Positions 27,896 through 56,885 of a stretch of 64,000 nucleotides of DNA are shown in pieces. The notes under the pieces are model-generated. The model searched no databases. It was not told the origin of the DNA and saw nothing but the letters and a program-made list of their open reading frames with translations. Both the position numbers and the translations under genes were made by a program. Source of the DNA: Calditrichota bacterium (GTDB taxonomy: Bacteria; Electryoneota; B3-LCP). Within the stretch, counting starts at the first letter, position 1, and the number at the start of each line of letters is the position of its first letter. The DNA lies in assembly GCA_020051775.1 (NCBI GenBank), contig JAGVQJ010000048.1, forward strand, positions 1-64,000. Reading direction: 5' to 3'.

Positions 27896-29032
27896 CTATG
27901 CTGGAACTTCCAATTCTGCATCCCACTCACTTGCCTCAGTTTCGATTGCCGAATCCGTTTCCGCTGAATAACATGGGAGATAAATCCGGAAGGTTGTACC
28001 CTTCTCAGTTTCGGATTGAACTTCAAACCGTGCGCGGTACTTCCGCATCAATTGATGCGCGCTTGACAACCCCAACCCCGTGCCCACCGGTTCATCGCTG
28101 CGCTGCTGACCGGCCAACGGTTTGGTCGTGAAGAAAGGATCGAAGATTCGGTCCCGAATTTCAGGGTTTATGCCGCAGCCGGTGTCTGTCACTTCGATCA
28201 TCATACTACTTTTAAGTGAAGAAGTCCTGACACTCAGCCATTTTTTGTCACTGGCGTGCATGGCATCAATGGAATTACGCACGATATTAAGAAAGGCCTG
28301 TGAAAAATCACTGTAGACGCCACGGATGGTGGGAAGATCAGGATCGAAGTTGTAGGACTTGTTAATCTCGTGCTTGAACGCCAAATCTGCATTCAGGAAC
28401 TCCAGCTCTTCCGTCAGTAATTTGTTTAAATCAATTTCCTGCTCGTCTTGGCTCTGTTCCTGGCGGCTCTTGAAAAGCATATTATTGACTATAGCGCTGA
28501 TGCGCAGAGCCTGTTCAAGCATATCATCCATATAGGGTAGGTCAGAATGAGTCAATTTTAATAGCTCAATATGGGTGATAATGCCTTGCAGGGGTACGTT
28601 CACATTATGAGCAATGCCGGCGGCCAGTAAACCGATGCTGGCTAACTTAGATTGCTGCATCAGCTCCAATTGCAACTCCTTTTCCCGTGCTTGTTCTATT
28701 TTATGCTCGGTGATATCAATAACCGTTCCCTGAATAGTTCGAGGTTTATCATTGTCATTCGACACCAGGGAAGCATTTTCGAGAATCCATACTGAGGTAC
28801 CATCTCGCCGGCGCAGATGGAATTCGTACTCTGTCAAAGACCCTTGCTCCTCCAATCGCTTGATAAAAACTTCCCGATCCCCAGGATCTTGGAAGAAATC
28901 CTTGACGCTGGCGCCAATGACTTCAGAACGACAGGAGCATCCCAATATATGAGCATACGCGTCATTGCAATCCAGAAATTTGCCCTCAACTGTCGAGCAG
29001 AACACTCCCGCTACACTGCGTTCAAATAGCAT
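27896..29032 (-). CDS. PAS-histidine kinase (C-terminal half of a probably frameshifted sensor kinase)
   Basis: PAS domain; ATPase motifs NIVRNSIDAM, TDTGCGINPEIRDRIFDPFFTTK, GTGLGLSSAHQLM; the frame continues upstream without a start as GIEHELALSEQRYRMLFERS. Confidence 0.85.
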   Translation of the reverse strand: MLFERSVAGVFCSTVEGKFLDCNDAYAHILGCSCRSEVIGASVKDFFQDPGDREVFIKRLEEQGSLTEYEFHLRRRDGTSVWILENASLVSNDNDKPRTIQGTVIDITEHKIEQAREKELQLELMQQSKLASIGLLAAGIAHNVNVPLQGIITHIELLKLTHSDLPYMDDMLEQALRISAIVNNMLFKSRQEQSQDEQEIDLNKLLTEELEFLNADLAFKHEINKSYNFDPDLPTIRGVYSDFSQAFLNIVRNSIDAMHASDKKWLSVRTSSLKSSMMIEVTDTGCGINPEIRDRIFDPFFTTKPLAGQQRSDEPVGTGLGLSSAHQLMRKYRARFEVQSETEKGTTFRIYLPCYSAETDSAIETEASEWDAELEVPA

Positions 29033-29067
29033 CCGGTATCGTTGTTCCGATAAAGCAAGTTCGTGTT

Positions 29068-30519
29068 CTATTCCCTTTGCACCGTAACGTCTTCCAGAAT
29101 ATACAGCCGCCCGATGTGTTCTCCCAGTTGATTTTTCACCTGGGAGCTCAAACAGCGAATGGTCTGGCCGTTGCGAAGCGGAATTTCGTCAATGATCTCT
29201 AATCGGGCTTTATCCCAATTTGATACGTCAAAGAATTCTTTAAATCTTTGACCTTCTATTTGCAAGGCAGAACACTGATTAATTACTTCCCCTGCGGAAA
29301 TGTTCCGGCTGCGCAGTTCAGCTTCCAGGCTCTCAATTCCACAAATTTCGCAAAAGCGCCGATTGAAAAACAGTATATTTTCAGCACGAGTATCCACCAT
29401 CAAGAAACCCAAAGGTGAAGAGTCGGACATGGAGCGCAGAAACGTTTCATTCAACCGCAACTCTTCATTGGAATGTTCCAGTGTCGTGAGCAAGTGATTA
29501 ATCGTCACTGCGAGACTGTGTAATTCATCGTCTCCTGCAGTGTAGACTCTGTTTCTTAAATCTGAGGGGTTGGCAATTTTACCAACTTGTTGAGTCAGAT
29601 TCACCAAACGAGACAGAACAAGTTTTTCCATCAAGATGAAGATAACGATTCCAAAAGTTAAAGCAATCACAACAGTAGATAACGTAAAATACCACGCTGA
29701 CAAAAGACCCTGCTTGTAAATGTCTCGCGGCATTATGATGCTCAAAACCAACTTAGATTGACCGAAGACATCCTTTATTATTGTATAACCTGCCACCGTT
29801 TCCTGATCAATTGGTTGGATGAATTCTTTAAAGTCACTCTCCTGAGAAGTTACGCCGATACTACCAGGTATCGGCGTAACCATTTTATCCCGATTGTAAA
29901 TGTTTATCCTCATATGAGTGATTGTAGACAGATGCTGAGTGTACTGCTCATCCAGTTTGCGACCCATGATTAGTTGACCATGTGGAAAGCCTTCGGCATC
30001 GCTGGTCAGAATTGAATTTATGGATATAATTAGCGATTCAGACTCCGTGACTAATACCCCGTCACAATGGATAATGGCATTATTCAGTTGTAACCCGCAT
30101 AATCTTTCCATCTCCTGGGCGATTTCCAGCGGCACAGGTATTTGGGAACTGCTGGAATCATCGTAGTACCGGGCATGCAGGATTTTCCCGGAATTCTTTA
30201 CGAAAAATATATAATCAACATTCAAGTTTGTAAACGTTGTGGGGACAATGTTTGTCTCTATATAAGATTGGTTGGAATCAATCATAAACCGATAAGTGTC
30301 ATCCCAATAGGCATAATCCCGGCATATTCTATCTAAAGCAGATAATTCATTGGTGAAGGCGTCGTGCGCGCGAGCCAAATCGCGATATACACTATTCTGT
30401 TCAATTTTTTTATTGTCGTTGATAAGTATATAATACGTGATAAGATACTGGCCGGCAATCAACGCCAGAATGACGCCACTGATGATCAATAGAGTTTTCT
30501 TACGCAGACCCACTGACAA
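29068..30519 (-). CDS. CHASE4-like/HAMP/PAS sensor (N-terminal half of a probably frameshifted sensor kinase)
   Basis: TM, periplasmic CHASE4-like region, HAMP (LSRLVNLTQQVGKIANPSDLRNRV), PAS ending YILEDVTVQRE*. Confidence 0.8.
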   Translation of the reverse strand: MSVGLRKKTLLIISGVILALIAGQYLITYYILINDNKKIEQNSVYRDLARAHDAFTNELSALDRICRDYAYWDDTYRFMIDSNQSYIETNIVPTTFTNLNVDYIFFVKNSGKILHARYYDDSSSSQIPVPLEIAQEMERLCGLQLNNAIIHCDGVLVTESESLIISINSILTSDAEGFPHGQLIMGRKLDEQYTQHLSTITHMRINIYNRDKMVTPIPGSIGVTSQESDFKEFIQPIDQETVAGYTIIKDVFGQSKLVLSIIMPRDIYKQGLLSAWYFTLSTVVIALTFGIVIFILMEKLVLSRLVNLTQQVGKIANPSDLRNRVYTAGDDELHSLAVTINHLLTTLEHSNEELRLNETFLRSMSDSSPLGFLMVDTRAENILFFNRRFCEICGIESLEAELRSRNISAGEVINQCSALQIEGQRFKEFFDVSNWDKARLEIIDEIPLRNGQTIRCLSSQVKNQLGEHIGRLYILEDVTVQRE

Positions 30520-30730: not shown

Positions 30731-30755
30731 AAGGGCGCCGCGCAGGACGCCCTCA
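30731..30755 (-). terminator. Intrinsic terminator of cytochrome operon
   Basis: Minus strand GAGGGCGTCCTGCGCGGCGCCCTTTTTT. Confidence 0.8.
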
Positions 30756-30774: not shown

Positions 30775-32013
30775 TTATTTACCTTTATGACACTGCACGC
30801 ACAGTTCGCGATTGCCTTCTAAAGGTAGTAAAGGATTGGCTTTGGCAAGGTGAATCTGGTGGCAACTGATACAGGTCATGGGTTTCTGGGTGCGGGGATC
30901 CACGGCGCCGGAACCCAAGGGGTGGGTAATCTGGTGTTGATGCTTATGGCAATTGCTGCACAGAGCAATAGATTCATCTGCCAGAAACCGTTCCTGATCG
31001 GAGCCATGCGGAACGTGGCAAGAGGTGCAATTCTGGTCGCCGTGTGGAGACCCTTTATAATCTTCTGTGAAGCCCGTCACAGTCCCATGGCAGCCGAAAC
31101 AGAGTGACTTTTGATCCGTCTTCAGCAGCGGAGCATCGCCGGCTGCATGAGGATTGTGGCAGGTCGTACATTCATTCTTATCCGGCGGCACATGGCGATA
31201 CAGTGACGTGTAACTCTGAGCAATCTCCTTATGGCAACTCTGACACAAATCGTTCATTTTTCCTTTCAGTGCGAAACCCTTTCCCTGTGCTGATTGCAGG
31301 TTGCTGTGGCAAGCCTGGCAGTTGTTGGCGGCGAAGGGATTGTGCTGCATGGGCATAAGAAGACCCTTGCTCTTGGAGCCATGTGGGTTGTGGCACGCGG
31401 TGCAGTTCGCGCCGCGTAAGTCGTAACCTTTATGTACGGTGGAAAAGCGAGTATCAATTTTGTGGCAACTCGAGCAAAGTGTGTAGACGTCCTTCTTCGT
31501 CAAGTCGTCGTGTTCCGAACTATGGGCGTCGTGGCAAGTTGTGCATGATCCGTTGATCATCGGATCATGCTTAACAGGGCTGGACAACCAACCCTTAGCC
31601 TGTTCATGGCAACTGATGCAGACCTCTCGGATCGGCGCGCGGAGCTGATCGGCATACTGCGAGGCGTGAGCGTCATGACAACTCAGGCATTCCCCCTTGG
31701 CCACCGGATCGTGAACCACGGGTTTGTCCAGCTTGGCGGCTTCTTCGGAATGGCAACCATAACACACGTTTTTTGTTTCATCTTGCAGCAGCGCGTTGTG
31801 CCGGGCAGCGTGAGGATTGTGGCACTGCGAGCATTTTCCGTCGGTTTTCAGCGGAGTATGCACATGCTTGCTGCTCAGAGTCTGCTTGAAGGTATCGTGG
31901 CATTGCAGACAGACCTGCGGCTCATTCACCTGCACCTGCGAAAAGGCTGAAGTTACGAGCAGCCAGGTGGCGGCCAAAAGAGAGGCACCGATATGTTGAA
32001 GCGTTTTGGTCAT
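30775..32013 (-). CDS. Multiheme c-type cytochrome, doubled CXXCH family, 16 CXXCH motifs
   Basis: Start refined to ATG at 32013 (MTKTLQHIGASLLAATWLLVTSAFSQ signal peptide, ATGA overlap with upstream gene); 16 CXXCH counted by eye. Confidence 0.93.
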   Translation of the reverse strand: MTKTLQHIGASLLAATWLLVTSAFSQVQVNEPQVCLQCHDTFKQTLSSKHVHTPLKTDGKCSQCHNPHAARHNALLQDETKNVCYGCHSEEAAKLDKPVVHDPVAKGECLSCHDAHASQYADQLRAPIREVCISCHEQAKGWLSSPVKHDPMINGSCTTCHDAHSSEHDDLTKKDVYTLCSSCHKIDTRFSTVHKGYDLRGANCTACHNPHGSKSKGLLMPMQHNPFAANNCQACHSNLQSAQGKGFALKGKMNDLCQSCHKEIAQSYTSLYRHVPPDKNECTTCHNPHAAGDAPLLKTDQKSLCFGCHGTVTGFTEDYKGSPHGDQNCTSCHVPHGSDQERFLADESIALCSNCHKHQHQITHPLGSGAVDPRTQKPMTCISCHQIHLAKANPLLPLEGNRELCVQCHKGK

Positions 32014-34031
32014 TTCGAACCCTTGATTTCCTGATTTTGACCCGGATGGCATGATTGACAATCGCGCTCGGCAAAGGGAGCGTGCATTTGCGGCCCCATT
32101 AATCCCTCGCCGGGGGATGAATGTGGATCGTGGCACCCGGTACAGTTCAGATTCGCGCCGCTTAATCCCAAATGGCTGGATTTAAACTTCGCCTCCTCCC
32201 CATCGTGACAGCTCAGGCACATTGCGGGCATTTCCTTCCGCGCTAAGGCAGCCGTCTGCGTATAATGCGGCGCATGACAATCCAGACACAACCCTTCCGC
32301 CGCAGGATAGTGGGCCTTGTCGGTCTTCAAGGGGCCGGCGATTTCCTTATGACAGGTCAAGCACAGGTTTTTCGGCTGATCCAGTAATAAACTCGGATTG
32401 GCGCTGTTGTGGGGGGCGTGGCAACTGCCGCAGTCCCCAGATACAAAAGGCTGATGAGTGGTCGTGGCGGTTTTAAGTCCCACGGCCAAGTCACTGTGGC
32501 AGGAGGCACAGAGTTCGGATTTTGGCGCAGTCAAAAGATTGGCAAATTGACCAGCATGGGATTTATGGCAGCTTTGACAATCTTTATCCACGAAGGGGGC
32601 ATGATGCGAGATTTGGTCGGGCGCATTCAACATGTCGTTATGGCAGGAAACACACAATTCGCCTTGAGGCAGTTTCAGCAATTTGGCATTGTTTCCCTGA
32701 TGCGGTTCATGGCAATCGGCGCATTTTCCGGAATAAACCGGAGTGTGAATGTAAGCTTGATCGTAATCTTTCTTGGCGTCGGCGTGACAACCAAAGCAGA
32801 GATCGTCGGTCTTTGCGGTCAACAACTTCTTCTGAGGACTACCATGCGGGGTATGGCAATCGGTACAAGAGCCCTCCACAAAGGCGGCATGCTTGACGGG
32901 GGCTTCGGTTCCGCCAATGAGGTCGGTATGGCACTTGAGGCAGAGCTCGCGAGTTGAAACCGTCAGAAGCTTCTTGTCAGTCTGACCGTGCGCGATATGA
33001 CAATTGGCGCACGATTCAGCGGCGGGCGCATGTTTGACGGCATTGTTCAACTGCTCGCCAACGTCGGAATGACACTCCTGACACAGTTGGCGATCGGGCG
33101 CTTTCAATAACGCTTTTTGAGCCGAACTATGGGGTTGATGACAAGACAAACACTCACCTTGCGCCACCGGTGGGTGCGTACCCGACGGAGCCACCTGGGA
33201 TTGTTCATGACAACTATAACATAACTCTCCAGCCGTCGCGGCGATGGTAAAGTCGTTACCCTGGCCCGGCGCCGGGTGGCAAGCCTCACAGTTGCCTTCA
33301 GCCAGCGGCGCGTGAACTGATTGGCCCAGCAGTTTGTCATCAGACGAAGTATGCGGCTGATGACAGACCGTACAGCTTTTTTCCGCCACGGGATAATTGC
33401 GGTGCGCCTTAGTGAATGAAGCCGTGCCGGTTTCGTGGCACTTACGACAAAGGTCCTTTTGTTCGACCGTTAACAGATGCTCATGATCGCCACCGTGTAC
33501 GTCGTGGCAAGCCCAACAAGATTCCTTGATCTTGGAATGCCCCTTATTCTGCGTAAACTGGGTTTGTTCATGGCAACCGAAGCAGAGCTCTTCGGCGCTA
33601 CTCTTCAGCAGCATCCCGCTGTTCGAGGCGTGAGGATCGTGACATTTGAGGCATTGACCCTTCTGAGCCGGGTCATGCTGAAACTTCCCAGACAAGCCTA
33701 ACGATTCGGGTTTGTGGCAACCCACGCACAGTTCGGTTTCCGGTTTCTGCAAGCGCAACGCGCCGACTTTGCCATGAGGTTTATGACAGACGCCGCATTC
33801 ACCCTTTTCGACCGGTTGATGCAGGTTTTTACCCGGGAATTTACTCAATTCATGACAACCGGTACAATCGCCTTTGCCGGAAAAAAGTTGACCTTTCTTC
33901 ACTTGCGCAGAACCAGGATCAGACCACAGTACCGTTAAGGCTAAACCGGCCAGTATCAATATCGCGATAACAGTTCCTCCGCGTCGTGTCCGATTCTGTT
34001 GGCCGAGGAATCCTTTTAATGCACGAAGCAT
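32010..34031 (-). CDS. Multiheme c-type cytochrome, doubled CXXCH family, 26 CXXCH motifs
   Basis: TM/signal peptide; tandem CxxCHxPHxS...LL...LCxxCH units; 26 CXXCH counted by eye. Confidence 0.94.
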   Translation of the reverse strand: MLRALKGFLGQQNRTRRGGTVIAILILAGLALTVLWSDPGSAQVKKGQLFSGKGDCTGCHELSKFPGKNLHQPVEKGECGVCHKPHGKVGALRLQKPETELCVGCHKPESLGLSGKFQHDPAQKGQCLKCHDPHASNSGMLLKSSAEELCFGCHEQTQFTQNKGHSKIKESCWACHDVHGGDHEHLLTVEQKDLCRKCHETGTASFTKAHRNYPVAEKSCTVCHQPHTSSDDKLLGQSVHAPLAEGNCEACHPAPGQGNDFTIAATAGELCYSCHEQSQVAPSGTHPPVAQGECLSCHQPHSSAQKALLKAPDRQLCQECHSDVGEQLNNAVKHAPAAESCANCHIAHGQTDKKLLTVSTRELCLKCHTDLIGGTEAPVKHAAFVEGSCTDCHTPHGSPQKKLLTAKTDDLCFGCHADAKKDYDQAYIHTPVYSGKCADCHEPHQGNNAKLLKLPQGELCVSCHNDMLNAPDQISHHAPFVDKDCQSCHKSHAGQFANLLTAPKSELCASCHSDLAVGLKTATTTHQPFVSGDCGSCHAPHNSANPSLLLDQPKNLCLTCHKEIAGPLKTDKAHYPAAEGLCLDCHAPHYTQTAALARKEMPAMCLSCHDGEEAKFKSSHLGLSGANLNCTGCHDPHSSPGEGLMGPQMHAPFAERDCQSCHPGQNQEIKGSK

Positions 34032-34035
34032 GGGA

Positions 34036-35694
34036 TTATTTACCTCTTATGGCGCTGAATTGCAGCGCTTTCAGCGCTTCATGATTGATAGTGATTTTCG
34101 ATCCGGTATTAAGTTGCTCCAAGACGTCTTTTAAAATCCGATCAAACTCCATCTGCTTCAAGCTCTCCTGCACGGCGCCGCGGACTTGCGACAATGGTAG
34201 CGGTTCGCCGGGTTTGCGATCCGTTAACTTGATCAGCATGTACCCATCCAGGTTTTGGTAGGGACCTGTCACGACGCCGATACTCAGTGTATCCAGAACC
34301 TTACGCAATGATTCTGGAAATTCAACCAACTTGAGCCATCCACGGTCACCCGATTTCCCGGCATAACGATCAGTAGAACAGCTCCGAACCATCCAGGTGA
34401 AATCAGCGCCGGCATTCAACCGGGCTAATACACGGTCGGCGCTATCTTGATCTGCCACAGTTAACTGGCTTATTTTAACCTCACCCGAGGAATGGTAATA
34501 ATCTCGATGTGCTTGGAAAAAAGTATCCTCCATGACCGGTGTGATGACAACCTGTGGAGTGACCGTCTTGGACAAATAATCCATCACCAGTAGAGAATCG
34601 GAGTAGGCCTCCGTTTTCCATTTTACTCGTTCATTGTCTGTAATGTATCCTCTTGAAATCACCTCTCTTTGGAAAAGTCGGTGATTGATCATTTCCTTCA
34701 GCACGCTAAATTTCATCGGATTCAGCATTTCAGGACTGCGGCTCACTGCGCTATGCAATATCTTGTGGCGGAGCTGAGTAAGCGTGATGGTGGAATCCCC
34801 CACCGAAGCCAGCACCCAACCGGAATCCGAAGCGCTGTAGGCGCTCGTATCGGTAATGACGGCAGCCAAATTCAGCAAACTGTCATTGACAACCACGCCA
34901 AATTTTGATTTCAACGAGGCGATAAACTCCTCATGGACAGTGTCTAAAAGCTGCCGTTGCAATGTGGTTAGAATCCGGCCACGGAAAATACCCAATTCCG
35001 AGGTATCGGCCGGCTGCGAAGCCAGTAACCTGAAAATCGCGAAACCATCGCGGTAGGGAAAGGGGCCGCGCAATTCTCCAACCCGAGCAGAATCAACCTG
35101 GGGTCGCAGAAATTCGTTCAATTCGAGCCAGTACCGCAGCCCCTTATCACCGCCCCCGAGGCGGTATTGATCCCCGGCATATTGTGCGGCGATGTCCTCC
35201 AGTTTTGCTCCGGCCTTTAAAGCCCGTAGCGAGCTATCGGCTTGGGATTTCTGGTTCAGAATAACCAGATAAATATGAAATTTTCGGAATTGTTTCGCGA
35301 AAGTTTCGCTTATCTCCCCCTCGGTGATGGGGATGCTGTCCGGAAGATTCTCGCGCAGTAACAGTTCGACGGCGGCATTCAGCTTAAATTTCTCGATTCG
35401 CGCTTTGTAGCCGGGTTCCTGATTTAAGCCCATAGCGACAGCATCCTGGACCATCAGTCGTTCATTGATCAAGCGTTCCAAAAGCTTTTCAACGTCGAAA
35501 CTTGTGCGACTTGTGTCATGTTCGCCGCTATGAATGCGACCCAATTCTCTTGAAAAGGCGCGTGCGAAAATAGTGTCGCCATCAACAATGGCCAAAGCGG
35601 TTGATTCGATATTATCGCGAGCCGGGACAGACTGCGTTAAAAGCAGCAAAACTCCGACGACAACATATATTTGCTTAGGATGATTTATGAGCAT
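34036..35694 (-). CDS. Parvulin/SurA-type peptidylprolyl isomerase with two PpiC-like domains
   Basis: IAAQYAGDQYRLGGGDKGLRYWLELNEFLRPQVDSARVGELRGPFPYRDGFAIFRLL and SCSTDRYAGKSGDRGWLKLVEFPESLRKVLDTLSIGVVTGPYQNLDGYMLIKLTDR. Confidence 0.88.
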   Translation of the reverse strand: MLINHPKQIYVVVGVLLLLTQSVPARDNIESTALAIVDGDTIFARAFSRELGRIHSGEHDTSRTSFDVEKLLERLINERLMVQDAVAMGLNQEPGYKARIEKFKLNAAVELLLRENLPDSIPITEGEISETFAKQFRKFHIYLVILNQKSQADSSLRALKAGAKLEDIAAQYAGDQYRLGGGDKGLRYWLELNEFLRPQVDSARVGELRGPFPYRDGFAIFRLLASQPADTSELGIFRGRILTTLQRQLLDTVHEEFIASLKSKFGVVVNDSLLNLAAVITDTSAYSASDSGWVLASVGDSTITLTQLRHKILHSAVSRSPEMLNPMKFSVLKEMINHRLFQREVISRGYITDNERVKWKTEAYSDSLLVMDYLSKTVTPQVVITPVMEDTFFQAHRDYYHSSGEVKISQLTVADQDSADRVLARLNAGADFTWMVRSCSTDRYAGKSGDRGWLKLVEFPESLRKVLDTLSIGVVTGPYQNLDGYMLIKLTDRKPGEPLPLSQVRGAVQESLKQMEFDRILKDVLEQLNTGSKITINHEALKALQFSAIRGK

Positions 35695-35698
35695 ACGG

Positions 35699-36793
35699 TC
35701 ATTCTTCCGAGTGGTGCTGAGGTGAAGGTTGAAGCGTTTCAGGCGGCAAGGCGGAGACTAACTCCTTGAGCGATAGAGCCATCAACCGGGACGTTCCGTA
35801 TACCCGGCCGAGCTGGAAGATCTTGACGAAATCATCGCCGCGATGTTCCACCTGGCGAGCCCAGATCAACTGACCGCTCTCGGCCTTGAGCAACCGGAGA
35901 CTCACCTGTACTGTGGGTATGTCATTCTCTTCAAACTGATCCGTTTCTTGATAGCTCTCGGCCGCCCCAGTGAGGCAATAATCGGCGTCTAAGCTTTCCT
36001 GCAGGGTTTTCAAGGTGGCTAAATCTATCCCATCACGCGGAGCAATCCCAGAGGCAGAAAGTTGCTGGTTTAAAGCCCCGGGTTCAATCACCCGGTAGCC
36101 GCGCTGCATTAAAAGAGATACCAATATATTATCGGTCATTTGCCCTGCGGTAGTCAAAGAGCCGGTATACTCAAGGGGGATGACCATGATAGAGGATTTA
36201 GCCTTACTTTTACCCACGATTACTTGAGCATTAACGAACCACGCCATCCACCATTCACGCAGCTCCTGAATCATGTCATCTATCGCCAGCTCCGCCAAAC
36301 GGTCCGCGGAGGTAATAACTCCCAGGCCCAGCAATCCGGTATGATCCGCGCCAGTGGCGCTGCGAGTGGCGGCCCAAACAACCTCACCGGTGTAGCTGTT
36401 TAACAATCGAGCGGACAACCCAATTTCCGGTTGGTCACCTTTCCGATAACAATCAATGGAGCCTATCAAAATCCAGTTGGTACCGGTTTCGCGGCTGATT
36501 TCCTGGGCCTGTTGTTGGCTTAATTGTCCCGTGTCCCGCACACGATCGCGTCGCAGTAAATCCTGCAGAAGATCATCCTCTATCAGACCAAACCCCGCCG
36601 TAGTCAATCTCTCCCGGACTATGGGCATGAGATAGGTTTTAGCCTCCGCGTCAGACGTGACGTTGCGAAATGGGAGCGCTACCAATACGACCAGCGTCGT
36701 GTCGGCTTGATCCTGTGCGGCACTAGTGAGTGCGGACAGGAGCAGAATCACCACAAGACCGCATCCGGTCAATTTCGTCGCATGAAACCGCAT
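35699..36793 (-). CDS. Secreted protein with CsgG/FlgO-like repeats
   Basis: Two segments resembling TolB-N/CsgG folds (VALPFRNVTSD..., VIPLEYTGSLTTAGQ...). Confidence 0.55.
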   Translation of the reverse strand: MRFHATKLTGCGLVVILLLSALTSAAQDQADTTLVVLVALPFRNVTSDAEAKTYLMPIVRERLTTAGFGLIEDDLLQDLLRRDRVRDTGQLSQQQAQEISRETGTNWILIGSIDCYRKGDQPEIGLSARLLNSYTGEVVWAATRSATGADHTGLLGLGVITSADRLAELAIDDMIQELREWWMAWFVNAQVIVGKSKAKSSIMVIPLEYTGSLTTAGQMTDNILVSLLMQRGYRVIEPGALNQQLSASGIAPRDGIDLATLKTLQESLDADYCLTGAAESYQETDQFEENDIPTVQVSLRLLKAESGQLIWARQVEHRGDDFVKIFQLGRVYGTSRLMALSLKELVSALPPETLQPSPQHHSEE

Positions 36794-36808
36794 GAAATCC
36801 TGCCAGAA

Positions 36809-37387
36809 TTATTTGATCAGCGACTTTAAAACGTTGCGGGAGCATTCCCGCATCGTCTCGGCGTTGGATTTGGGTGAAAGTCCGAAGAGAGAAGCCATTA
36901 GACCAGGGCGACCATCGGTGCGTGTAGCGGACCAGACGGTCGCCCCGGTTTCGGTCTCCACCATACGCAGATCGAGTGTAACGGTATTGATGCTTATGCC
37001 CCCACTGCGGGTCGAACCCGATTCGCTGACACTACCGAAAATCAGAGCTTGAGCGCCCAAGCGCTTGCCTAAATCTTTGATTTGCTGCAAATCCAGACTG
37101 GGATTGCGAAGTGCGTTCATCTCGGACAAGGCTTTGGCAGTCTCGCCGGGTTCTATCACGATAAAAGTTTCACTGGCCAGCAGCTCGGTGAGGAAGGCCG
37201 TCGTGGCGTGCTTACCCGCCATCTGGGAAGCCGACAGGTTTTCAAAGGGAATGACCGCCACTTTTTCGACGTAACCGAAATTGAAGGAATGGTCCAGGAA
37301 GGCGTGTGAGCCCCCACAACTGGATATAAACAATAAAACCAGCAGCAACACTGCGAGTTGTACTCCAATGTGAGTTCGTGTCACCAT
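36809..37387 (-). CDS. CsgG/DUF799-like lipoprotein
   Basis: Lipobox LLFISSCGG; VEKVAVIPFENLSASQMAGKHAT; start refined to 37387. Confidence 0.65.
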   Translation of the reverse strand: MVTRTHIGVQLAVLLLVLLFISSCGGSHAFLDHSFNFGYVEKVAVIPFENLSASQMAGKHATTAFLTELLASETFIVIEPGETAKALSEMNALRNPSLDLQQIKDLGKRLGAQALIFGSVSESGSTRSGGISINTVTLDLRMVETETGATVWSATRTDGRPGLMASLFGLSPKSNAETMRECSRNVLKSLIK

Positions 37388-37397
37388 GATAGTACCT

Positions 37398-39515
37398 TTA
37401 GAAACTGGCATTCAGTCCCACCTGATAGGAGGAATTCTCCTCGGTTAGACCGTTGGTAATTTTATTATGAGAATATCCGGCAAAGCTGCTGACTCTATCG
37501 CTGATAAGGTAAGAGAGTTGCATGTTCAAGATTCGAGTACTATAATTTGATCCGAGGCTTCCGGTGTTGGTTTGAAAACGCAAATTGGCGCTGGTGGAAA
37601 TTTTTCGAGTCAAATCCCATCCGACGGAATAGTCCTGCGTAAGGCTCTCATTACCTTCCTCCTGCCCATAAGTAATGCCTCCTCGCAAGAAGAGTGCCGG
37701 AGTCATCCTGTAGTTAAAGCGCAGATCCGCTTCATCTCGATGGCCGTCCGGGTACAAATAATTGGACATATAGACTCGACGGGTTACCGTGCTGATCAGA
37801 TTCAAATTCTGATAAGGCGTGGCGTCGGCTGATAACCGGTAGGTCCAGCTGTCGGTAACGAGCGTAGAGGACGTTGTCGGCCGTTCGCTGCGTGAAAATC
37901 CGGTCTCAGTCAAGATGTTTAACCCGGGAATCAACACCGCCGACAGATGGAAAAGCGCCGAATGCGTCAATTGAGTTTGATCTTGATTCTGCCAGGATCT
38001 CAACCTCGATCCGGAGAGTGAGGTTTCCAAGGTTTTCAGCGGATTCAGCAAAAAGATCAGCGAATATAATTCTGTTTCGAGGGAGGTAACCAATCCCGTC
38101 CGATAATCTGTCAATCCGCGTTGATAGCGCCCTACGGAACTGAACTTGTCGTTGGGTCGGAAAGAAACCGTGCCCGAGACGTTGGCATCACGTCGTTGTT
38201 GCCCGGAAAGGTCCTCCACCTGCGACCCGAAAACCGCATCAGTGCTTAGCCGCCAATAGGAGTGCGCCTGGTAAGACAGACTGGCATTCACACGGTGATT
38301 CCGCGTCAGGTCTGGACCCAATCCCAGGATTTGATCGCTGATATAACCTTGAATTTCAGTAACGTAAACTTCCGGTTGCTCGTCCGTCGTGGTGTTGATG
38401 ACTTTAAAATAGCGGGCGGTGGTCGTAGGGAAACTTATCTCATAACGATGAAGTGGTCCGTTAAAAGTGGATAGTACGCCGCCGGCTTGAATCGTCCAGG
38501 CAAGATTATCGCCGCTGGTGTACACCGACCACGCCAGGGAAGGATCCGCGGTGCGATCAGTGTATAGGTAAATCACACTTAAGGTGCGCGCCAGAGAGAG
38601 ATCGAAGCCAATATTCTGGTGCAGAAAGGTGCCGCCGAGATTGATACCGGTAGATTGTTCCACGTTGCCGTCAATCAATGTCGCCAGCGTATCAAGAGGC
38701 CCCAAAGTGGGACTGGCATCCTGTTGGTAAAGCCCTATGACGGCAGGTATTTGTATAAACGGCATCACCGCCTGACTGGATTCCTGGCGACGGTGGGTAT
38801 AATTGAACATGTAATTACCGGCAAACAAAAGGCGGTTTTTAATCAAATTATTGGAATAATCCAACCTGAAAATATGCTGCTCCAGGTTTTGCGAGATTCC
38901 GCCGCTCAAATTATCGAACCGTTGATTAGTGTAAGTGTAATAGGAATTCGCATGCTTATAAGAATAATTGGCGGCATACTGAAATCGTCTCTCTTCATTA
39001 TCGGAAGGTAGTAGACCGGCGTTGATGGCGCTGTGACTCCAATCATACGACACAGTGCTTTGAGGAATGCGGCGATTGAAGGTGGTTTTAAAATAGATGC
39101 CGGCGCTACGACTTATCGTATTGTTCACGGTGGCACGATCCCGTATTTGACGATATCGCGCATGAACTCCCAAATTGAAGAAGGGATTAACCCAATTCAG
39201 ATTACCGGACGGCATCAATTCACCCTGCCAACCATTTGCTTCGGCAGTCTGAAAAGTTTGAATGTCATGGTAAGTCAAGGATAGATGTACGGAGATATAA
39301 GGCAAAAGTGAGCGGCTATAATTCATCATGTACTGCTGATCTAATGATCTAAGCCTCGAGGTATCCACTTCGGTATCCATTCCTAAAAAACGCGCGCTTC
39401 CATGCAGGTTGTTGAAGGCCGTTGCCTCCGGCGGACTCAGAGTCGTCCCCGCAAACATGATCAATATCAGGAAGGTTCTATGTACCAAACCCCATGTTTT
39501 CTGGAAATGTTTCAT
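37398..39515 (-). CDS. Large outer-membrane beta-barrel, candidate electron-conduit porin, with discoidin-like insertion
   Basis: 705 aa of alternating amphipathic strands ending in aromatic/Phe (SSYQVGLNASF); insert AWSVYTSGDNLAWTIQ...RYEISFPTTTARYFKVINTTTDEQPEVYVTEIQ resembles F5/8 type C. Confidence 0.75.
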   Translation of the reverse strand: MKHFQKTWGLVHRTFLILIMFAGTTLSPPEATAFNNLHGSARFLGMDTEVDTSRLRSLDQQYMMNYSRSLLPYISVHLSLTYHDIQTFQTAEANGWQGELMPSGNLNWVNPFFNLGVHARYRQIRDRATVNNTISRSAGIYFKTTFNRRIPQSTVSYDWSHSAINAGLLPSDNEERRFQYAANYSYKHANSYYTYTNQRFDNLSGGISQNLEQHIFRLDYSNNLIKNRLLFAGNYMFNYTHRRQESSQAVMPFIQIPAVIGLYQQDASPTLGPLDTLATLIDGNVEQSTGINLGGTFLHQNIGFDLSLARTLSVIYLYTDRTADPSLAWSVYTSGDNLAWTIQAGGVLSTFNGPLHRYEISFPTTTARYFKVINTTTDEQPEVYVTEIQGYISDQILGLGPDLTRNHRVNASLSYQAHSYWRLSTDAVFGSQVEDLSGQQRRDANVSGTVSFRPNDKFSSVGRYQRGLTDYRTGLVTSLETELYSLIFLLNPLKTLETSLSGSRLRSWQNQDQTQLTHSALFHLSAVLIPGLNILTETGFSRSERPTTSSTLVTDSWTYRLSADATPYQNLNLISTVTRRVYMSNYLYPDGHRDEADLRFNYRMTPALFLRGGITYGQEEGNESLTQDYSVGWDLTRKISTSANLRFQTNTGSLGSNYSTRILNMQLSYLISDRVSSFAGYSHNKITNGLTEENSSYQVGLNASF

Positions 39516-39532
39516 CAGCTCGCGTTAACCGA

Positions 39533-40945
39533 TTAGGGGAAGACAATGGCGCAAGGTTTCAGTCCCGTAGCAATCACGCCCTTGACTTGTCCCGCATTTC
39601 TGCCAATCAGACTGAGATTATTGGATTCGGAACAGACAACATACAGAAGTGCACCTTCAGGATCCAGAGCTAACCGCTTGGGGAAGGACTTCACTGCGAT
39701 CTGGTTTATATCCAAATTCAGCGCCAGTTTCAGTATGGCCACAAGGTTAAGGTTTTCGATAGAGCAATAGAGTGTACCGGCGCGAGCATCGCTGACCAGG
39801 TCATTAACGGAATGAGTGGTATTCAGCGTCCCGGAGACGGTGAAAGTCTCAGTATTAATCTGAGTGATAGTTCCAGAACCGTAATTGGCAACATAAAGCC
39901 TTTGGCCTGGCGCATCAAGCTCCAAGCTGACCGGATTAGATCCCACGGACAGGTTGCGCGGAGCCGCTGTCATGGTTGCGTTGAAGGCGGAAATGTCATC
40001 CGATAAGCTATTGGCCGTATAAACCCAGCCGCTGGCCGGATCAGCGACAATGTCGTTGGGGGCCGTACCCACGCTTATTTTATCGCGGCGACTGAAGTTG
40101 AAGGCATCAATAATGGAGACGCTGTTCGATCCGCGGTTGGCGGTAAAGAGCAGGCGTTCATCGCCGGACAGTGTCAGCGCGGAGGGCTCGTCGCCGAAAT
40201 CCAAGTCTATCAGCGCTCGAGGAATTCGCGTGTTCAACTCCAGAACCGAAACATTGTGAGACCCGGCATTGGCTACAAACAGTAGATTCCGTTTGACACT
40301 GACGGCTAAGCCGCGAGGTTTGGCACCGACTCGCACTATGCCAACTACCTCGCTACGAATGCGATCAATGACCGATAAGTTGTCGGATGCCTCATTGGCA
40401 ACAAATGCCAGGGCGGTAACCGGAGGGATTATTTTTTTCACCTGGCGAAAACGGCCGTAAGCGTTTGAATCTGCCAGGGGAGCCGACGTCCATTGTAAAA
40501 AAAGAGCCTTTGCCTGTCCTTGTTCTATGCTGACATTCAAGGGAAGCGAGATGATCCTGCGGGCGGAATCGGCGCTGTCGGCTTGGGTAACATGATTAGA
40601 GGCGAGAGAGAGGATTAAGGAATGGTACTGACCTGGGTCAACCAGGGATTCCGCCAATAGAATTTGTTGCTGGGAAAGTTCTTGCAGCTTGAGGCGGGGG
40701 GTAACCAGAGTAATTTCGTGAGAAGCGTATTCGCCTTGCAGTATCAGGCGTTCGAAGGTGAGAGTAGAATCGGAGTGAGTTGAGATTTTTTCGAGGTAAA
40801 TCGCGACTTGCCCGAACGACTCTTGGGCGCGAAGGCGCGGTGAACACGACCACAAGCTTAAAGTGATCAATAATAAGCAAAATTTTGCCGCCGCTGTAGC
40901 AAAGCAATGTCCGGTTTTCGACTTTTGATCCACGCGTGCTCTCAA
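39533..40945 (-). CDS. YVTN-family beta-propeller protein (possible lipoprotein)
   Basis: Repeats LAFVANEASDNLSVIDRI, LLFVANAGSHNVSVLEL, LLFTANRGSNSVSIIDAF, LYVANYGSGTITQINTE; exact start uncertain (TTG vs GTG at 40933). Confidence 0.88.
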   Translation of the reverse strand: MRARVDQKSKTGHCFATAAAKFCLLLITLSLWSCSPRLRAQESFGQVAIYLEKISTHSDSTLTFERLILQGEYASHEITLVTPRLKLQELSQQQILLAESLVDPGQYHSLILSLASNHVTQADSADSARRIISLPLNVSIEQGQAKALFLQWTSAPLADSNAYGRFRQVKKIIPPVTALAFVANEASDNLSVIDRIRSEVVGIVRVGAKPRGLAVSVKRNLLFVANAGSHNVSVLELNTRIPRALIDLDFGDEPSALTLSGDERLLFTANRGSNSVSIIDAFNFSRRDKISVGTAPNDIVADPASGWVYTANSLSDDISAFNATMTAAPRNLSVGSNPVSLELDAPGQRLYVANYGSGTITQINTETFTVSGTLNTTHSVNDLVSDARAGTLYCSIENLNLVAILKLALNLDINQIAVKSFPKRLALDPEGALLYVVCSESNNLSLIGRNAGQVKGVIATGLKPCAIVFP

Positions 40946-40961
40946 TTTATATTAAGCAGTG

Positions 40962-40995
40962 CAGGTCGGCGCCCGAAAATCTGGGCGCCGACCTG
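40962..40995 (-). terminator. Strong intercistronic hairpin downstream of OmcS-like gene
   Basis: 13-bp perfect stem CAGGTCGGCGCCC / GGGCGCCGACCTG, 8-nt loop, no strong T-run. Confidence 0.6.
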
Positions 40996-41044
40996 ACTGG
41001 AATGGGTACTATGACCGATCGCCATGTAGAAAGTAGATCGGGAT

Positions 41045-42124
41045 TTAAGGATTCAGTTCGTCGCCTTCATCCTTGTTGTGGCACTTGTTGCAGAGCGAGC
41101 GCTGATCGGCGCCTGACCCAGCGTACGGATTGGGCATAGCCCAAGAGCCGGATTCCACGCCTTCTTCAGACCACACGGTAATTTTGAAGTCCCAACGGCC
41201 AATGTCCGGGCCGGTGGTAGCGTGTGCACGGTGGCAAGTCAAGCACATGACTTTGGAATTGGCGGTCGGGCCGCCAGCCGAGGTGATGGTCATGGCCGGA
41301 TCTTCGAAGGGAACCATAGCCAGATAAGAGGCCGTGGGGTCGCCGCCGTTTTGATTGGCCGTACCAGCGTAGATGCCATAACGGGTGGCTTCTTCACCAG
41401 TCAGAGTAGATCCACTGGGGTGCAAGTTGTGTGTGGAGTTATGGAAATCCGCATGGCAATTGGAGCACCATTCGGACATACCGCCCTGATAAGCGGTGTG
41501 GTTGGCGTTGGATTCGGCTGAAGAGGTGCTGATGCCGGCAGCTTCCGGAGCCGGGTTGGTGAAGGTATACAGACCGTCCTGGATGGGACCGGTGGTGTTC
41601 AACAGGCGCATGTGTTCATTGCCATGCGGGTCGTGGCAACTGGTGCAGCCCAAGATGGAGGACGGGAAACTGCCGCCGGGGCCCATGGTGAAAGTGGGGT
41701 CAGCCGCCAGATTTTTACTCGGAGCAACGATGCTGTGACCGCCTTTGTAACCGGGGATGAAATTGGCGGTAAGGTGGCCGTTGTGGCCGTCATTCAGGTT
41801 ATCTTCCAACAAGAATACGAAATCGCCGGCGCCCTGTTCGGACTGGGGAGCCAACATGTTGGCAGACAGAACATAGCGGCCATTGGATGTTGTCCCTGTC
41901 TGCGTATGGCAAGACAGACAGACATCGCTGGGGGTTTCATCCTTCAACAGCCAGGAGTTTCCATTGGGGGCATTGGGATCAACCGGCTGACCATCTTGGC
42001 TGTTGTGCATCGTGTGGCATCCGCCACAATAAGCCACACCGCCATCGTGGAAGGCAAGAGCAATACCGCTTAATGATAAAGCCACGGCAATGCTCAGGGT
42101 ACCGACTAGTAATGCTTTACGCAT
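41045..42124 (-). CDS. OmcS-like hexaheme c-type cytochrome (candidate extracellular nanowire subunit)
   Basis: Signal peptide then AFHDGGVAYCGGCHTMHNS, CLSCH, GHSIVAP..LAADPTFTMGPGGSFPSSILGCTSCHDPHG, QGGMSEWCSNCHADFHNS, CLTCHRAHA, QRSLCNKCHNKDEGD; six CXXCH. Confidence 0.88.
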   Translation of the reverse strand: MRKALLVGTLSIAVALSLSGIALAFHDGGVAYCGGCHTMHNSQDGQPVDPNAPNGNSWLLKDETPSDVCLSCHTQTGTTSNGRYVLSANMLAPQSEQGAGDFVFLLEDNLNDGHNGHLTANFIPGYKGGHSIVAPSKNLAADPTFTMGPGGSFPSSILGCTSCHDPHGNEHMRLLNTTGPIQDGLYTFTNPAPEAAGISTSSAESNANHTAYQGGMSEWCSNCHADFHNSTHNLHPSGSTLTGEEATRYGIYAGTANQNGGDPTASYLAMVPFEDPAMTITSAGGPTANSKVMCLTCHRAHATTGPDIGRWDFKITVWSEEGVESGSWAMPNPYAGSGADQRSLCNKCHNKDEGDELNP

Positions 42125-42216
42125 GCTTTCCTCCTAAATCTCCATTCATGTTTGATCCTCCACAGATCGTTACCCCGGTGCGGTACAAAAGATGCTAACG
42201 TGTTGATTTGAAACTG

Positions 42217-43206
42217 CTATTCGTCCACGACGATGGTGCTTTCCATCTGCGATGGTGCGGATTCGACTTCTGCCGGAAGCTGCAGTACCTGTACCATGTT
42301 ATTGAATCCTTGCGTCACCCAGACACGGTTTCGAGCATCAACCATAATGTCAATTGGATGATAAAACCATCCTGGATCTTTGCCCATGCCGCCGAATTCG
42401 CCGTTGACTCTACCCGTGCTATCGTAGCTGACTACGGTGTGCCGGTGTTTATCCAAGACCAGCACGTTGTGGTTTAGGTCAGTTGAAACCGCCAGCGGGA
42501 AGGATAATTCGCCGTATCCTGCGCCGGACTGACCGACCACGGTGACCAATGAACCTTGAGTGTTGTAACAATAAACCGAGCCAAGCATGGGCAAAGGAAT
42601 GTAAATCAGGTCTCCATCCAGATGGATGGCGCCCAGCATCTGCTCGCGGCGAAGATTATCTTTCAAATCCTGGAAAATGGGGAACTCGTTTACGTAATCG
42701 CCGGATAAATTGCAGGTTATTATTCGACCACCTAATTCGTCTGTCAAAAACATCCGATCTTGATCCTTGATCACCAAACTGCCGATGGCCAGAGAATCGG
42801 AGTCAGGACCGCCCTGAATCACAAAGGGATATAGATAATCTCCATTATAATCAAAAACTTGAATAGAAGAACCGTTTACCAACATGCTCAGAATGTACAT
42901 CCGTCCTTGGTCATCAACGGCAATGTCTATGGGGGACTGCAACTTATCTTGGTTGGCGAATTCGAAAAGGTAGTTTCCTTGCGAATTTAAGATCACTACG
43001 CGGTTGTGGCCGGTATCAAGAAGATAGAACTCACCCGTGCGATGATCCTGACGCACTCGCCGGGGCTGGTCTAATTGCAGAGCCGTTTCCTCGGTTCCCA
43101 GCGCGAAAATAAACTTTGCCGATATTCTGGTGTAAGCATCCTGCCCCCAGGAAACTCCCATAGTGAGAAGCGTTACAAACAGAATAACAAGCGTCTTTCC
43201 GGCCAT
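42217..43206 (-). CDS. NHL-repeat beta-propeller protein
   Basis: FYLLDTGHNRVVILNSQGNYLFEF, VDDQGRMYIL, FGGMGKDPGWFYHPIDIMVDARNRVWVTQGFNNMVQVLQ. Confidence 0.9.
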   Translation of the reverse strand: MAGKTLVILFVTLLTMGVSWGQDAYTRISAKFIFALGTEETALQLDQPRRVRQDHRTGEFYLLDTGHNRVVILNSQGNYLFEFANQDKLQSPIDIAVDDQGRMYILSMLVNGSSIQVFDYNGDYLYPFVIQGGPDSDSLAIGSLVIKDQDRMFLTDELGGRIITCNLSGDYVNEFPIFQDLKDNLRREQMLGAIHLDGDLIYIPLPMLGSVYCYNTQGSLVTVVGQSGAGYGELSFPLAVSTDLNHNVLVLDKHRHTVVSYDSTGRVNGEFGGMGKDPGWFYHPIDIMVDARNRVWVTQGFNNMVQVLQLPAEVESAPSQMESTIVVDE

Positions 43207-43918: not shown

Positions 43919-44950
43919 ATGAAAATACTGAAAATACCCAAAAAGAAGTTAGATCTGTTCGCTTCGATCCTTCACCAAGGCTGGGAACTCCACGCGCCGG
44001 TCGAACAGAATGGAAAATTTGCGTTTAAACCGCTGGATCAATGGGCTCAGGCTCGTCTCGCTTATAATCGCACCCTTCTGGCTCCCAAAAAGTATTTTCT
44101 TCCTCCCCAAGAGGCGATGTTCGAGTATCGGAATCATGAGGGTTACGTTCCTTCCCGCGAAGGGCTGGATAAGCGGGTCATCCTGTTCGGCGTGCATTCC
44201 TGCGACATTTTCGCCATAAACATCCTGGATGAGGTGTTCGCCGGAAAATATCCCGATCCTTACTACCAGATCCGTCGTAAAAATACCGCCATCATCGGTG
44301 TAGACTGCGTGCCTGATGAATACTGCTTCTGTCGTTCCATGCGGGCTGATTTCGTGGATAAAGGATTCGATTTGTTCTTCAACGACATCGGCGATTATTA
44401 TCTAACCGCAGTAGGAACCAGTCTCGGTGATGACCTTGTTCTGGCCACTGCGCAGCTCTTCGAAGAGATCAACGATAAAGATATCGCCGAATACAAGCAC
44501 CGCTCGTCCGAAAAGCAAAAGGCCTTCAAACTGGATGTGGAAATTCGCGACCTGCTGGGGATCTTTGAGCTTGAATACGAAAGCCAGATCTGGGATGAGT
44601 TGGGCGACCGCTGCCTTTCTTGTGGGAGCTGCAGCATGGTCTGTCCCACCTGTTACTGCTTCGATGTGATGGATCACATCAAACTGGGATCCAAAGAGGG
44701 GTCAAGGGTGCGCACCTGGGATTCCTGCCTGTTCCACAGCCATGCGTTGGTCGCCGGTGGTGAAAATTTCCGCAAGGAAAGATCCAGCCGCATTAAACAT
44801 CGCTACTATCACAAACAGAGCGGTTTCGTCGCCGAATTCGGGCGCCCAAGTTGCGTGGGTTGTGGTCGCTGTATCGAAAGTTGCCCGGTGAAGATTGACA
44901 TAGTCGAGGTGCTAAATCGGTTGCGAGGTGAAGAACATGCCATATCCTGA
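43919..44950 (+). CDS. hydB: Group 3b-type [NiFe]-hydrogenase/sulfhydrogenase beta subunit (4Fe-4S)
   Basis: CLSCGSCSMVCPTCYCFDV and CVGCGRCIESCPVKIDIVEV; HSCDIFAINILDEVF. Confidence 0.92.
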   Translation: MKILKIPKKKLDLFASILHQGWELHAPVEQNGKFAFKPLDQWAQARLAYNRTLLAPKKYFLPPQEAMFEYRNHEGYVPSREGLDKRVILFGVHSCDIFAINILDEVFAGKYPDPYYQIRRKNTAIIGVDCVPDEYCFCRSMRADFVDKGFDLFFNDIGDYYLTAVGTSLGDDLVLATAQLFEEINDKDIAEYKHRSSEKQKAFKLDVEIRDLLGIFELEYESQIWDELGDRCLSCGSCSMVCPTCYCFDVMDHIKLGSKEGSRVRTWDSCLFHSHALVAGGENFRKERSSRIKHRYYHKQSGFVAEFGRPSCVGCGRCIESCPVKIDIVEVLNRLRGEEHAIS

Positions 44951-45809
44951 AGAACGACTTATAAATGATCCGGTTCAGACCGACAATCCTTACTGGCCGC
45001 AAATGGCTCGGATCGTGCGCATCTACAAGATGGTCCCGGACAACTATGTTTTCACTCTGCGCTTTACGGATCAGCGCCGGGCGGAACGATTCAAGCATAA
45101 ACCAGGGCAGTTTATCATGCTTTCGGTGCCGGGAGCAGGTGAAGCGCCGATTTCGATTTCTTCCTCTCCTACAAGGCCGGGAATGCTGGAATTATGCGTT
45201 CGCCGCGTCGGAAGGGTAACTGATGCCCTGTATCGCATGCAGACGAACGACCTGGTTGGCCTACGAGGTCCCTATGGCAATGGCTTTCCTGTTGAGAAGA
45301 TCGCTGGGAACGACCTACTGATTGTGGCTGGCGGGTTGGGTATGGCCCCGCTGCGATCGCTACTATGGTATGTCCTGGATAATCGCGACAGTTTTAAAAA
45401 AGTTACGCTGATGTATGGGGCTAAAACTCCCGCTGACATGCTTTACCGCGAGGAGCTGCAATCGCTGGTGGATCGCACTGACATGCGTTGTTTGTTGATT
45501 GTGGATAGGGATCCCACCGGCGCCTGGAAAAATCATGTGGGATTGTTGCCCACACTGTTTGACCATGTTGCCCTTGAACCGGCCAATACTTATGCTGCTG
45601 TGTGCGGTCCTCCGGTGGTCTACAAGTACATTCTGCAAAAGCTTCTTGGGTTGAACTTTTCCAAGGATCGCATTTTAATGTCCTTGGAGCGGCGCATGAA
45701 GTGCGGCGTAGGGAAATGCTCACATTGCAGTGTTGGCTACAAATACACATGCATACACGGCCCCATTTTCACCTATTGGGATGCCATTAATTTACCAGAG
45801 TTAGTATAG
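44937..45809 (+). CDS. hydG: Hydrogenase gamma subunit (FAD/NAD(P)-binding, C-terminal FeS)
   Basis: Flavin site and NAD(P)-binding GNDLLIVAGGLGMAPLRSL; MSLERRMKCGVGKCSHCSVGYKYTCIHGPIFTYWD; overlaps hydB. Confidence 0.92.
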   Translation: MPYPEERLINDPVQTDNPYWPQMARIVRIYKMVPDNYVFTLRFTDQRRAERFKHKPGQFIMLSVPGAGEAPISISSSPTRPGMLELCVRRVGRVTDALYRMQTNDLVGLRGPYGNGFPVEKIAGNDLLIVAGGLGMAPLRSLLWYVLDNRDSFKKVTLMYGAKTPADMLYREELQSLVDRTDMRCLLIVDRDPTGAWKNHVGLLPTLFDHVALEPANTYAAVCGPPVVYKYILQKLLGLNFSKDRILMSLERRMKCGVGKCSHCSVGYKYTCIHGPIFTYWDAINLPELV

Positions 45810-45811
45810 TT

Positions 45812-45837
45812 GTCAGGGTCGAGACGACCTCGACTAC
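45812..45837. repeat. REP-like hairpin between hydG and hydD
   Basis: GTCAGGGTCG AGA CGACCTCGAC TACA. Confidence 0.55.
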
Positions 45838-45855
45838 AAATTGAGGATAGTGATA

Positions 45856-46611
45856 ATGTCAAAACCTAAAATAGGTATATTCGGGCTTACCGGATGCGCC
45901 GGCGACCAGTTGGTCATTCTGAACTGCGAAGACCAGCTCTTGGATCTGGTGGCCGCTGTAGACATCCGGGATTTCCTCACGGCGACGTCAGCCAATGACA
46001 CAGAAAGTCGGTTGGATGTGGCCTTCGTGGAAGGCGCCGTATTAAGTAAGCGCGATGAGGAAACCTTGAAGAAAATCCGCGAACGTTCCGACGTTTTGGT
46101 CGCTTTGGGGACTTGCGCCGTATGGGGCGGCATTCCCGCCTTAGATCGCGGACGGGATCGCTTGGAACTCCTGCAAACCGTCTACGGGAACAAAGCAGAA
46201 CAATACGATACAATGCCCACCAAAGCCCTACATGAAGTGGTCAAGGTGGATTTGAATATCTCAGGCTGCCCGATTGAAAAGGAGCAATTTCTTTCGAGCG
46301 TGGCTGATTTGCTGAATGGCAATCCTCCACTGCTGCCCGATTATGCCGTGTGCGCCGAATGCAAGTGGAAGGAGAACAACTGCCTATTAATCGAGAAGGG
46401 CGAAGTGTGTTGTGGTCCCTTAACCATTGCCGGGTGCAAGGCACGTTGCCCGGAGTTAAATGTCGCTTGCGCAGGCTGCCGGGGGCCCGCAACAGACGCC
46501 AATGTCAAATCAGCAGTGGCTTTATTCCAGGAGAAAGGAATCTCTTTGACTGATGTAGCCGCCAAGTTCAGAACATTTGCTCCGGTGCAGATTACGGACA
46601 AGCCGGAATGA
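45856..46611 (+). CDS. hydD: [NiFe]-hydrogenase delta (small) subunit
   Basis: KPKIGIFGLTGCAGDQLVILNCED; LGTCAVWGGIPAL; ISGCPIEKEQFL; start refined to ATG 45856. Confidence 0.93.
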   Translation: MSKPKIGIFGLTGCAGDQLVILNCEDQLLDLVAAVDIRDFLTATSANDTESRLDVAFVEGAVLSKRDEETLKKIRERSDVLVALGTCAVWGGIPALDRGRDRLELLQTVYGNKAEQYDTMPTKALHEVVKVDLNISGCPIEKEQFLSSVADLLNGNPPLLPDYAVCAECKWKENNCLLIEKGEVCCGPLTIAGCKARCPELNVACAGCRGPATDANVKSAVALFQEKGISLTDVAAKFRTFAPVQITDKPE

Positions 46612-46667
46612 CAGGTTGGTCAGATTCCGGGCAAGCCGGAATGACCCCGTTCACCGGAATGACCCCG
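46599..46667. repeat. Direct repeat array (CAAGCCGGAATGAC-type), overlapping hydD stop codon
   Basis: CAAGCCGGAATGAC at 46599-46612 and 46632-46645; CACCGGAATGACCCCG at 46652-46667. Confidence 0.75.
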
Positions 46668-46684
46668 ATTAAATGGAGAAGAGC

Positions 46685-50500: not shown

Positions 50501-50518
50501 GGCATGCCTCCTTTATTG

Positions 50519-50546
50519 ATGACAAATCATAAATGACAAATGACGC
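50519..50546. repeat. Heptad tandem repeat
   Basis: ATGACAA/ATCATAA/ATGACAA/ATGACGC. Confidence 0.75.
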
Positions 50547-50561
50547 AGTCGATCGCGTGTG

Positions 50562-56883: not shown

Positions 56884-56885
56884 AA

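Follow-up and report, generated by a model that had tools for sequence, protein, structure and literature searches.

In Geobacter, the osc (omcS-companion) operon, GSU2504-GSU2493, contains omcS, omcT, and oscC followed by an eight-gene block, GSU2500-GSU2493 (Shen et al. 2025, as cited in PMC13194489 and PMC12977616). According to these two sources, the block is tied to OmcS maturation, folding, and secretion, with OscH assigned to folding, OscE, OscF, and OscG to secretion, and OscD to morphology, while oscI is GSU2495, which encodes 26 haems, and oscJ is GSU2494. Here we describe a nine-gene locus in a 64,000-nucleotide stretch of DNA (contig JAGVQJ010000048.1; hereafter the window) which, from its gene order, domains, and haem counts, is very probably an osc-type operon that builds an OmcS-family cytochrome nanowire.

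The locus comprises nine open reading frames (ORFs) at 30775-43206, all on the minus strand and closely packed from the YVTN gene onward. The first gene encodes an NHL-repeat six-bladed propeller (42217..43206; Pfam NHL/DUF5128), and the second an OmcS-family hexahaem cytochrome (41045..42124), the predicted nanowire subunit, which lies directly upstream of the block. The block itself consists of a YVTN/lactonase-type propeller at the OscD position (39533..40945; Pfam Lactonase, E = 5.5e-19), an outer-membrane β-barrel at the OscE position (37398..39515), a PelC/LpoB-like lipoprotein at the OscF position (36809..37411), a tandem two-domain PelC/GNA1162-like periplasmic protein at the OscG position (35699..36793), a double-PpiC (SurA/PpiD-like) peptidyl-prolyl isomerase chaperone at the OscH position (34036..35694; Pfam Rotamase_2, E = 8.3e-21, in two stretches), a 26-haem cytochrome at the OscI position (32010..34031; compare GSU2495, likewise with 26 haems), and a 16-haem cytochrome at the OscJ position (30775..32013; compare GSU2494). 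The start codon of the last of these is most likely the ATG at 32013, which overlaps the 26-haem stop codon (ATGA), rather than the GTG at 32136. CXXCH motifs number 6, 26, and 16 in the three cytochrome genes and zero in the other six, and Pfam supports the NHL and YVTN/lactonase propellers, two CsgG/LpoB/GNA1162-like proteins, and both PpiC rotamase stretches. An intrinsic terminator, consisting of a 9-bp stem and a T run (folding z-score −2.8), ends the operon at 30731..30754 (minus strand, 30754-30731).

As read from these assignments, the order NHL, OmcS-like, YVTN, barrel, two CsgG-like proteins, double PpiC, 26-haem, and 16-haem is that of the Geobacter osc block, and the propeller, barrel, two ring-type proteins, PpiC isomerase, 26-haem protein, and second giant cytochrome are collinear with it. 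Profiles of each block gene match the equivalents in Geomonas and Geobacter sp. AOG1, where the block follows OmcS-family genes. Gene content, order, and haem counts are alike; the Geobacter operon, however, has omcS, omcT, and oscC where the window has a single wire-type cytochrome, and the window's host, unlike that of the Geobacter operon, is FCB (Fibrobacteres-Chlorobi-Bacteroidetes)-like with type IX sorting tails. RpoB identity between the window's phylum and the named genomes is 55-58% across most of the protein (61% across one part), compared with at least 68% within the phylum. The initial annotation of this DNA had proposed an extracellular electron conduit island closed by a terminator, in a layout differing from the Mtr and Geobacter Pcc layouts known to it. 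Its nine same-strand ORFs, their domains and haem counts, the terminator, and the notion of a functional island around an OmcS homologue all hold; the layout, however, is not that of a new conduit, as its order and haem counts match the published Geobacter osc block.

The hexahaem protein matches OmcS (PDB 6ef8) with E = 1.4e-37, so the earlier label "OmcS-like" is backed by homology. In the OmcS filament, which is ∼4 nm wide, each of the 12 axial ligands is a histidine; 11 belong to the subunit itself and the remaining one is donated by its neighbour (PMC6584659). Alignment with OmcS indicates that the six CXXCH histidines and six further, distal histidines are conserved, with 12 of 12 present in the window protein and in each of five block-adjacent homologues from its phylum. 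Because all 12 are kept, the cross-subunit ligand is kept too, whichever histidine it is; we take it to be His16 of mature OmcS, which corresponds to H40 in the window protein. Compared with the OmcS nanowire (PDB 6EF8, 6NEF), the window protein is ∼50 residues shorter and of low identity, and its polymerisation is a prediction. These differences would suit a protein that is exported but stays monomeric or matrix-bound and forms no wire, as would the statement in PMC12977616 that among the Geobacter relatives of OmcS wire formation has been shown for OmcS only. Retention of the full histidine set, including the cross-subunit ligand, argues against such a protein, as does a hairpin pattern, described below, that fits wire genes, and we consider this alternative unlikely.

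To place the wire subunit, we used a careful tree of 61 rows, read as unrooted and with its groups named after the tree had been seen. The window protein falls in a 20-row clade (support 100/100) drawn from the window's phylum, Krumholzibacteriota, Calditrichota, Fibrobacteria, and Thermoanaerobaculia, while OmcS and the OscC-position genes occupy a separate 37-row clade (100/97) from Desulfobacterota and Nitrospirota. Forced grouping of the window clade with the OmcS types or with the OscC types was rejected by the approximately unbiased (AU) test (p = 0.0016 and 0.0008, respectively). On this tree the wire gene lies outside both types, and it is not an orthologue of OmcS rather than of OscC. 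These sequence relationships are most simply read as indicating that a single wire gene with its block may be older than the OmcS/OscC split, and thus possibly the ancestral form. The window clade also provides an outgroup for the question, raised in PMC12977616, of whether OmcS arose from the GSU2501 type. Although the identity of the wire gene hardly changes with host distance, the window's family stays together in the tree (98/89), and we do not claim lateral transfer.

The block recurs as a unit. The window's phylum was covered by 39 genomes. In the same six of these (the window's genome, G013, G014, G026, G027, and G028), an OmcS-like gene next to the block occurs together with the barrel, PpiC isomerase, and 26-haem genes, and all four are jointly absent from the remaining genomes; two weak PpiC matches (one in G038, the other an additional one in G014) resemble other isomerases. 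The YVTN propeller was found in the window and G013 and not in G014, G026, G027, or G028, and is therefore optional in this phylum. Beyond the phylum, 79 loci were fetched from named genomes with an OmcS query, so that blocks without an OmcS-family gene are invisible to this survey. Thirty-two locus-strands carry at least three of six block genes, and 27 of these 32 are collinear, the exceptions including extra gene copies and split operons. The set spans Geobacteraceae, other Desulfobacterota, Nitrospirota, Thermoanaerobaculia (Acidobacteriota), Krumholzibacteriota, and Fibrobacteria (Fibrobacterota), in addition to the five relatives in the window's phylum, and co-occurrence in relatives, which the initial annotation had proposed as a check, is accordingly seen. 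Among the fetched loci, an NHL gene stands directly 5' of an OmcS-family gene in 34 adjacent pairs.

Several of these genomes show further arrangements. At two loci (L039 and L066), the PpiC, 26-haem, 16-haem, and NHL genes form a divergent module split from the OmcS, YVTN, barrel, and ring genes. G026-G029 encode an OmcS-family paralogue that lies apart from any block and has a seventh CXXCH close to its C-terminus (L021, L023, L024, and L025); it is a second family member except in G029, where it is the sole OmcS-family gene. On G027 contig 6 and G028 contig 2 (L020-L023), an osc-type block and the 7-CXXCH paralogue flank haem-biosynthesis genes, namely hemC, hemD, ferrochelatase, an amine-oxidase-type gene, GlutR, ALAD, and a class-III aminotransferase.

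Directly 3' of the wire gene, the window carries an intercistronic stem-loop (40957..40999, minus strand) with a 17-pair stem and one bulge; its best 50-nucleotide segment has a folding free energy of −35.3 kcal/mol, with a z-score of −7.4 against dinucleotide shuffles. Scoring hairpins at a shuffle p ≤ 0.05, in an analysis that followed the noticing of the first cases and in which related loci are not independent, we found one 3' of 28 of 37 in-operon OmcS-family genes (18/25 block-adjacent and 10/12 tandem-upstream copies), compared with 5/22 OmcS-family copies with no block seen, 11/110 block genes, and 7/30 other genes with same-strand gaps of 80 nucleotides or more. Stem sequences vary among loci (the window and L017-L064), and a T run is present in some and missing in many. 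Several tandem operons have the hairpin 3' of the upstream OmcS-type copy and none after the copy adjoining the block. In puf-type operons, an analogous intercistronic hairpin serves to keep subunits in excess. By analogy, the hairpin may keep the wire subunit in excess over the machinery, and it may be a candidate mark that tells wire-subunit genes from paralogues.

The 705-residue barrel has no Pfam match, including none to MtrB_PioB, and no PDB sequence match to MtrB; membership in the MtrB family was rejected on these grounds. AlphaFold2, given 27 sequences, nevertheless predicts the outer-membrane β-barrel that the initial annotation had named (mean predicted local distance difference test [pLDDT] score 86.2; predicted template-modelling score [pTM] 0.59). 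By hand count of the DSSP string, the model has 11 strands, an insert of ∼150 residues, and then 17 more strands, or ∼28 in total. Its best PDB fold match is MtrB (6r2q_B, E = 1.3e-9), ahead of TonB receptors, ushers, and LptD, at a moderate template-modelling (TM) score of 0.41/0.44. The lumen, about which the initial annotation had asked whether it could hold a cytochrome, is thus predicted to be wide enough in principle, although the MtrB likeness is moderate and of fold only. A 28-strand barrel would measure roughly 5 nm across the backbone by a hand estimate, comparable with the width of the OmcS filament. The insert, at residues ∼253-393, resembles discoidin/CBM32 domains (profile E = 0.0057 to 2jd9) and, judging from strand parity, would lie outside the cell. 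It is the most conserved part of the protein (mean pairwise identity 0.30 versus 0.22 for the barrel strands) and contains the sole invariant column, W340. A search of a viral fold library with the barrel yielded no informative match apart from F5/8C names low in the ranking.

The best PDB match of both giant cytochromes is 6r2q chain A (E = 2.7e-19 for the 26-haem and 1.6e-16 for the 16-haem protein), which we take to be MtrA, the molecule name in the file being evidently wrong; low-complexity CXXCH spacing inflates such matches, and they are a lead rather than proof. Exactly 26 motifs occur in 19 of 22 complete homologues assigned to the former, and 16 in 14 of 20 assigned to the latter. In the window's genome, contig 102 carries a row of genes (L106, 7068-13015) for an 11-haem protein, a cytochrome b561-type protein, a 9-haem protein, a 308-residue protein, and a 17-haem protein with an N-terminal membrane segment, a candidate inner-membrane quinol-to-periplasm module.

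These likenesses raise the question of whether the operon instead encodes a stand-alone Mtr-type conduit, in which the barrel holds the 26- or 16-haem protein, the OmcS-like protein is a terminal surface cytochrome, and the chaperone and ring merely assemble the conduit. A wide barrel and MtrA-like multihaem proteins are indeed common to the operon and the MtrCAB porin-cytochrome conduit (PDB 6R2Q), ∼28 predicted strands would accommodate a cytochrome, and the window's genome lacks an MtrB_PioB family barrel, so that something must carry electrons across the outer membrane. However, the fold match is moderate and unaccompanied by any detectable sequence relation to MtrB, and the MtrCAB barrel has 26 strands where the window barrel has ∼28 and a discoidin-like insert. 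The window operon also adds PelC-like proteins, which known conduits do not have, and a PpiC chaperone, while lacking an MtrC-type decahaem. Moreover, work on Geobacter ties this block to the folding and secretion of the wire, even though several porin-cytochrome (Pcc) conduits are present there as well. We therefore regard a stand-alone conduit as very unlikely, whereas conduction stays alive as a possible second role of the operon, because of the MtrA-like cytochromes and the MtrB-like barrel fold.

The two proteins at the OscF and OscG positions had been called CsgG-like in the initial annotation, which accords with Pfam; both are nearer to PelC, and the longer one consists of two tandem domains. 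The 364-residue protein matches PelC (9h80) by profile at E = 1.2e-12, and its AlphaFold2 model (pLDDT 85.0) has two tandem α/β domains with short core strands and no long transmembrane or pore hairpins. Foldseek aligns this model to PelC with TM scores up to 0.76 on target length, and CsgG ranks lower. The 200-residue lipoprotein matches PelC (5t11) by profile at E = 7.4e-12 and has a Cys at position 32, after a hydrophobic signal, that is invariant in 22 homologues. A CsgG-type pore was accordingly rejected for the pair, as PelC/GNA1162 and LpoB match better and the modelled 364-residue protein is without pore hairpins. In Pseudomonas, PelC is a lipoprotein, twelve copies of which make up a ring on the PelB barrel (PMC12141448). 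By analogy, the PelC likeness suggests a concrete form for the secretion role of OscE, OscF, and OscG, with ring formation predicted in the window. We did not find a PelC-Osc comparison in the accessible literature, though one may stand in the primary Osc paper. As in the PelBC exopolysaccharide exporter (PDB 9H80), PelC-type proteins are encoded beside an outer-membrane barrel; the window barrel, however, belongs to a different, larger barrel family, and has a tandem-domain partner and presumably a cytochrome as substrate. A PelBC-like polysaccharide exporter lying beside unrelated cytochromes, although it would account for the ring proteins and the CBM32-like insert, is scarcely credible given the lack of any glycan synthase or deacetylase within the nine-gene run and the conservation of block order with cytochromes across phyla.

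We propose that the primary role of the operon is to make and export the wire, because published work on Geobacter connects this block with the folding and secretion of nanowires. Specifically, the PpiC chaperone would keep the haem-loaded subunit competent for delivery through the PelC-like periplasmic ring into the barrel. The subunit would then cross the outer membrane and polymerise outside as a histidine of one subunit ligates a haem of its neighbour. From the periplasm, where they would remain, the 26- and 16-haem proteins would supply the wire with electrons at the barrel or close to it. Wire morphology or docking would fall to the propellers and to the discoidin-like domain of the barrel, and the stem-loop would hold the subunit in excess. 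We consider this detailed route of ring, barrel, and feeder cytochromes to be about evenly balanced between right and wrong. A bolder and rather doubtful extension is a dual machine in which an MtrB-type barrel on a PelC-type ring not only secretes the subunit but also, together with the two MtrA-like cytochromes of 26 and 16 haems, charges the wire at its base, the single wire gene plus block being ancestral and OmcS and OscC arising by later duplication. Several points weigh against a nanowire operon. OmcS itself is the one G. sulfurreducens sequence that was compared, the Osc names being assigned by order, domains, and haem counts, and the barrel is only about 18-20% identical to its Geobacter relatives. 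In addition, published work disputes the importance of OmcS wires for Fe(III) reduction, and OmcS filaments have reportedly been expressed in Shewanella, so that the block may be an aid to wire formation rather than a requirement.

The locus therefore places a known kind of operon in a new lineage, a deep-branching uncultured phylum, where its single wire-subunit gene bears on nanowire origin. To the known osc kind it adds the PelC likeness, the barrel insert, a wire gene branching outside OmcS and OscC, and the hairpin after wire genes. For the passage of cytochrome wires through the outer membrane, and for the site at which electrons reach them, the cross-phylum set offers a concrete model: a PelC-like ring, an MtrB-like barrel with a discoidin-like insert, and MtrA-like feeders.

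Other genes of the window lie on both sides of the operon. At 27896-30519, the window encodes a CHASE4-HAMP-PAS protein and, 35 bp further on in a different frame, a PAS histidine kinase; these are either a genuine pair or a single sensor kinase that has been split or frameshifted. Beside the operon, a divergent gene set at 43919-48438 encodes a cytoplasmic-type NiFe hydrogenase (Fer4_22, FAD/NAD reductase, and large subunit). Type IX sorting tails occur on many proteins (9190-13467, 18121-19401, and 48563-61627), including a C25 gingipain-family peptidase, a subtilase, and a matrixin.

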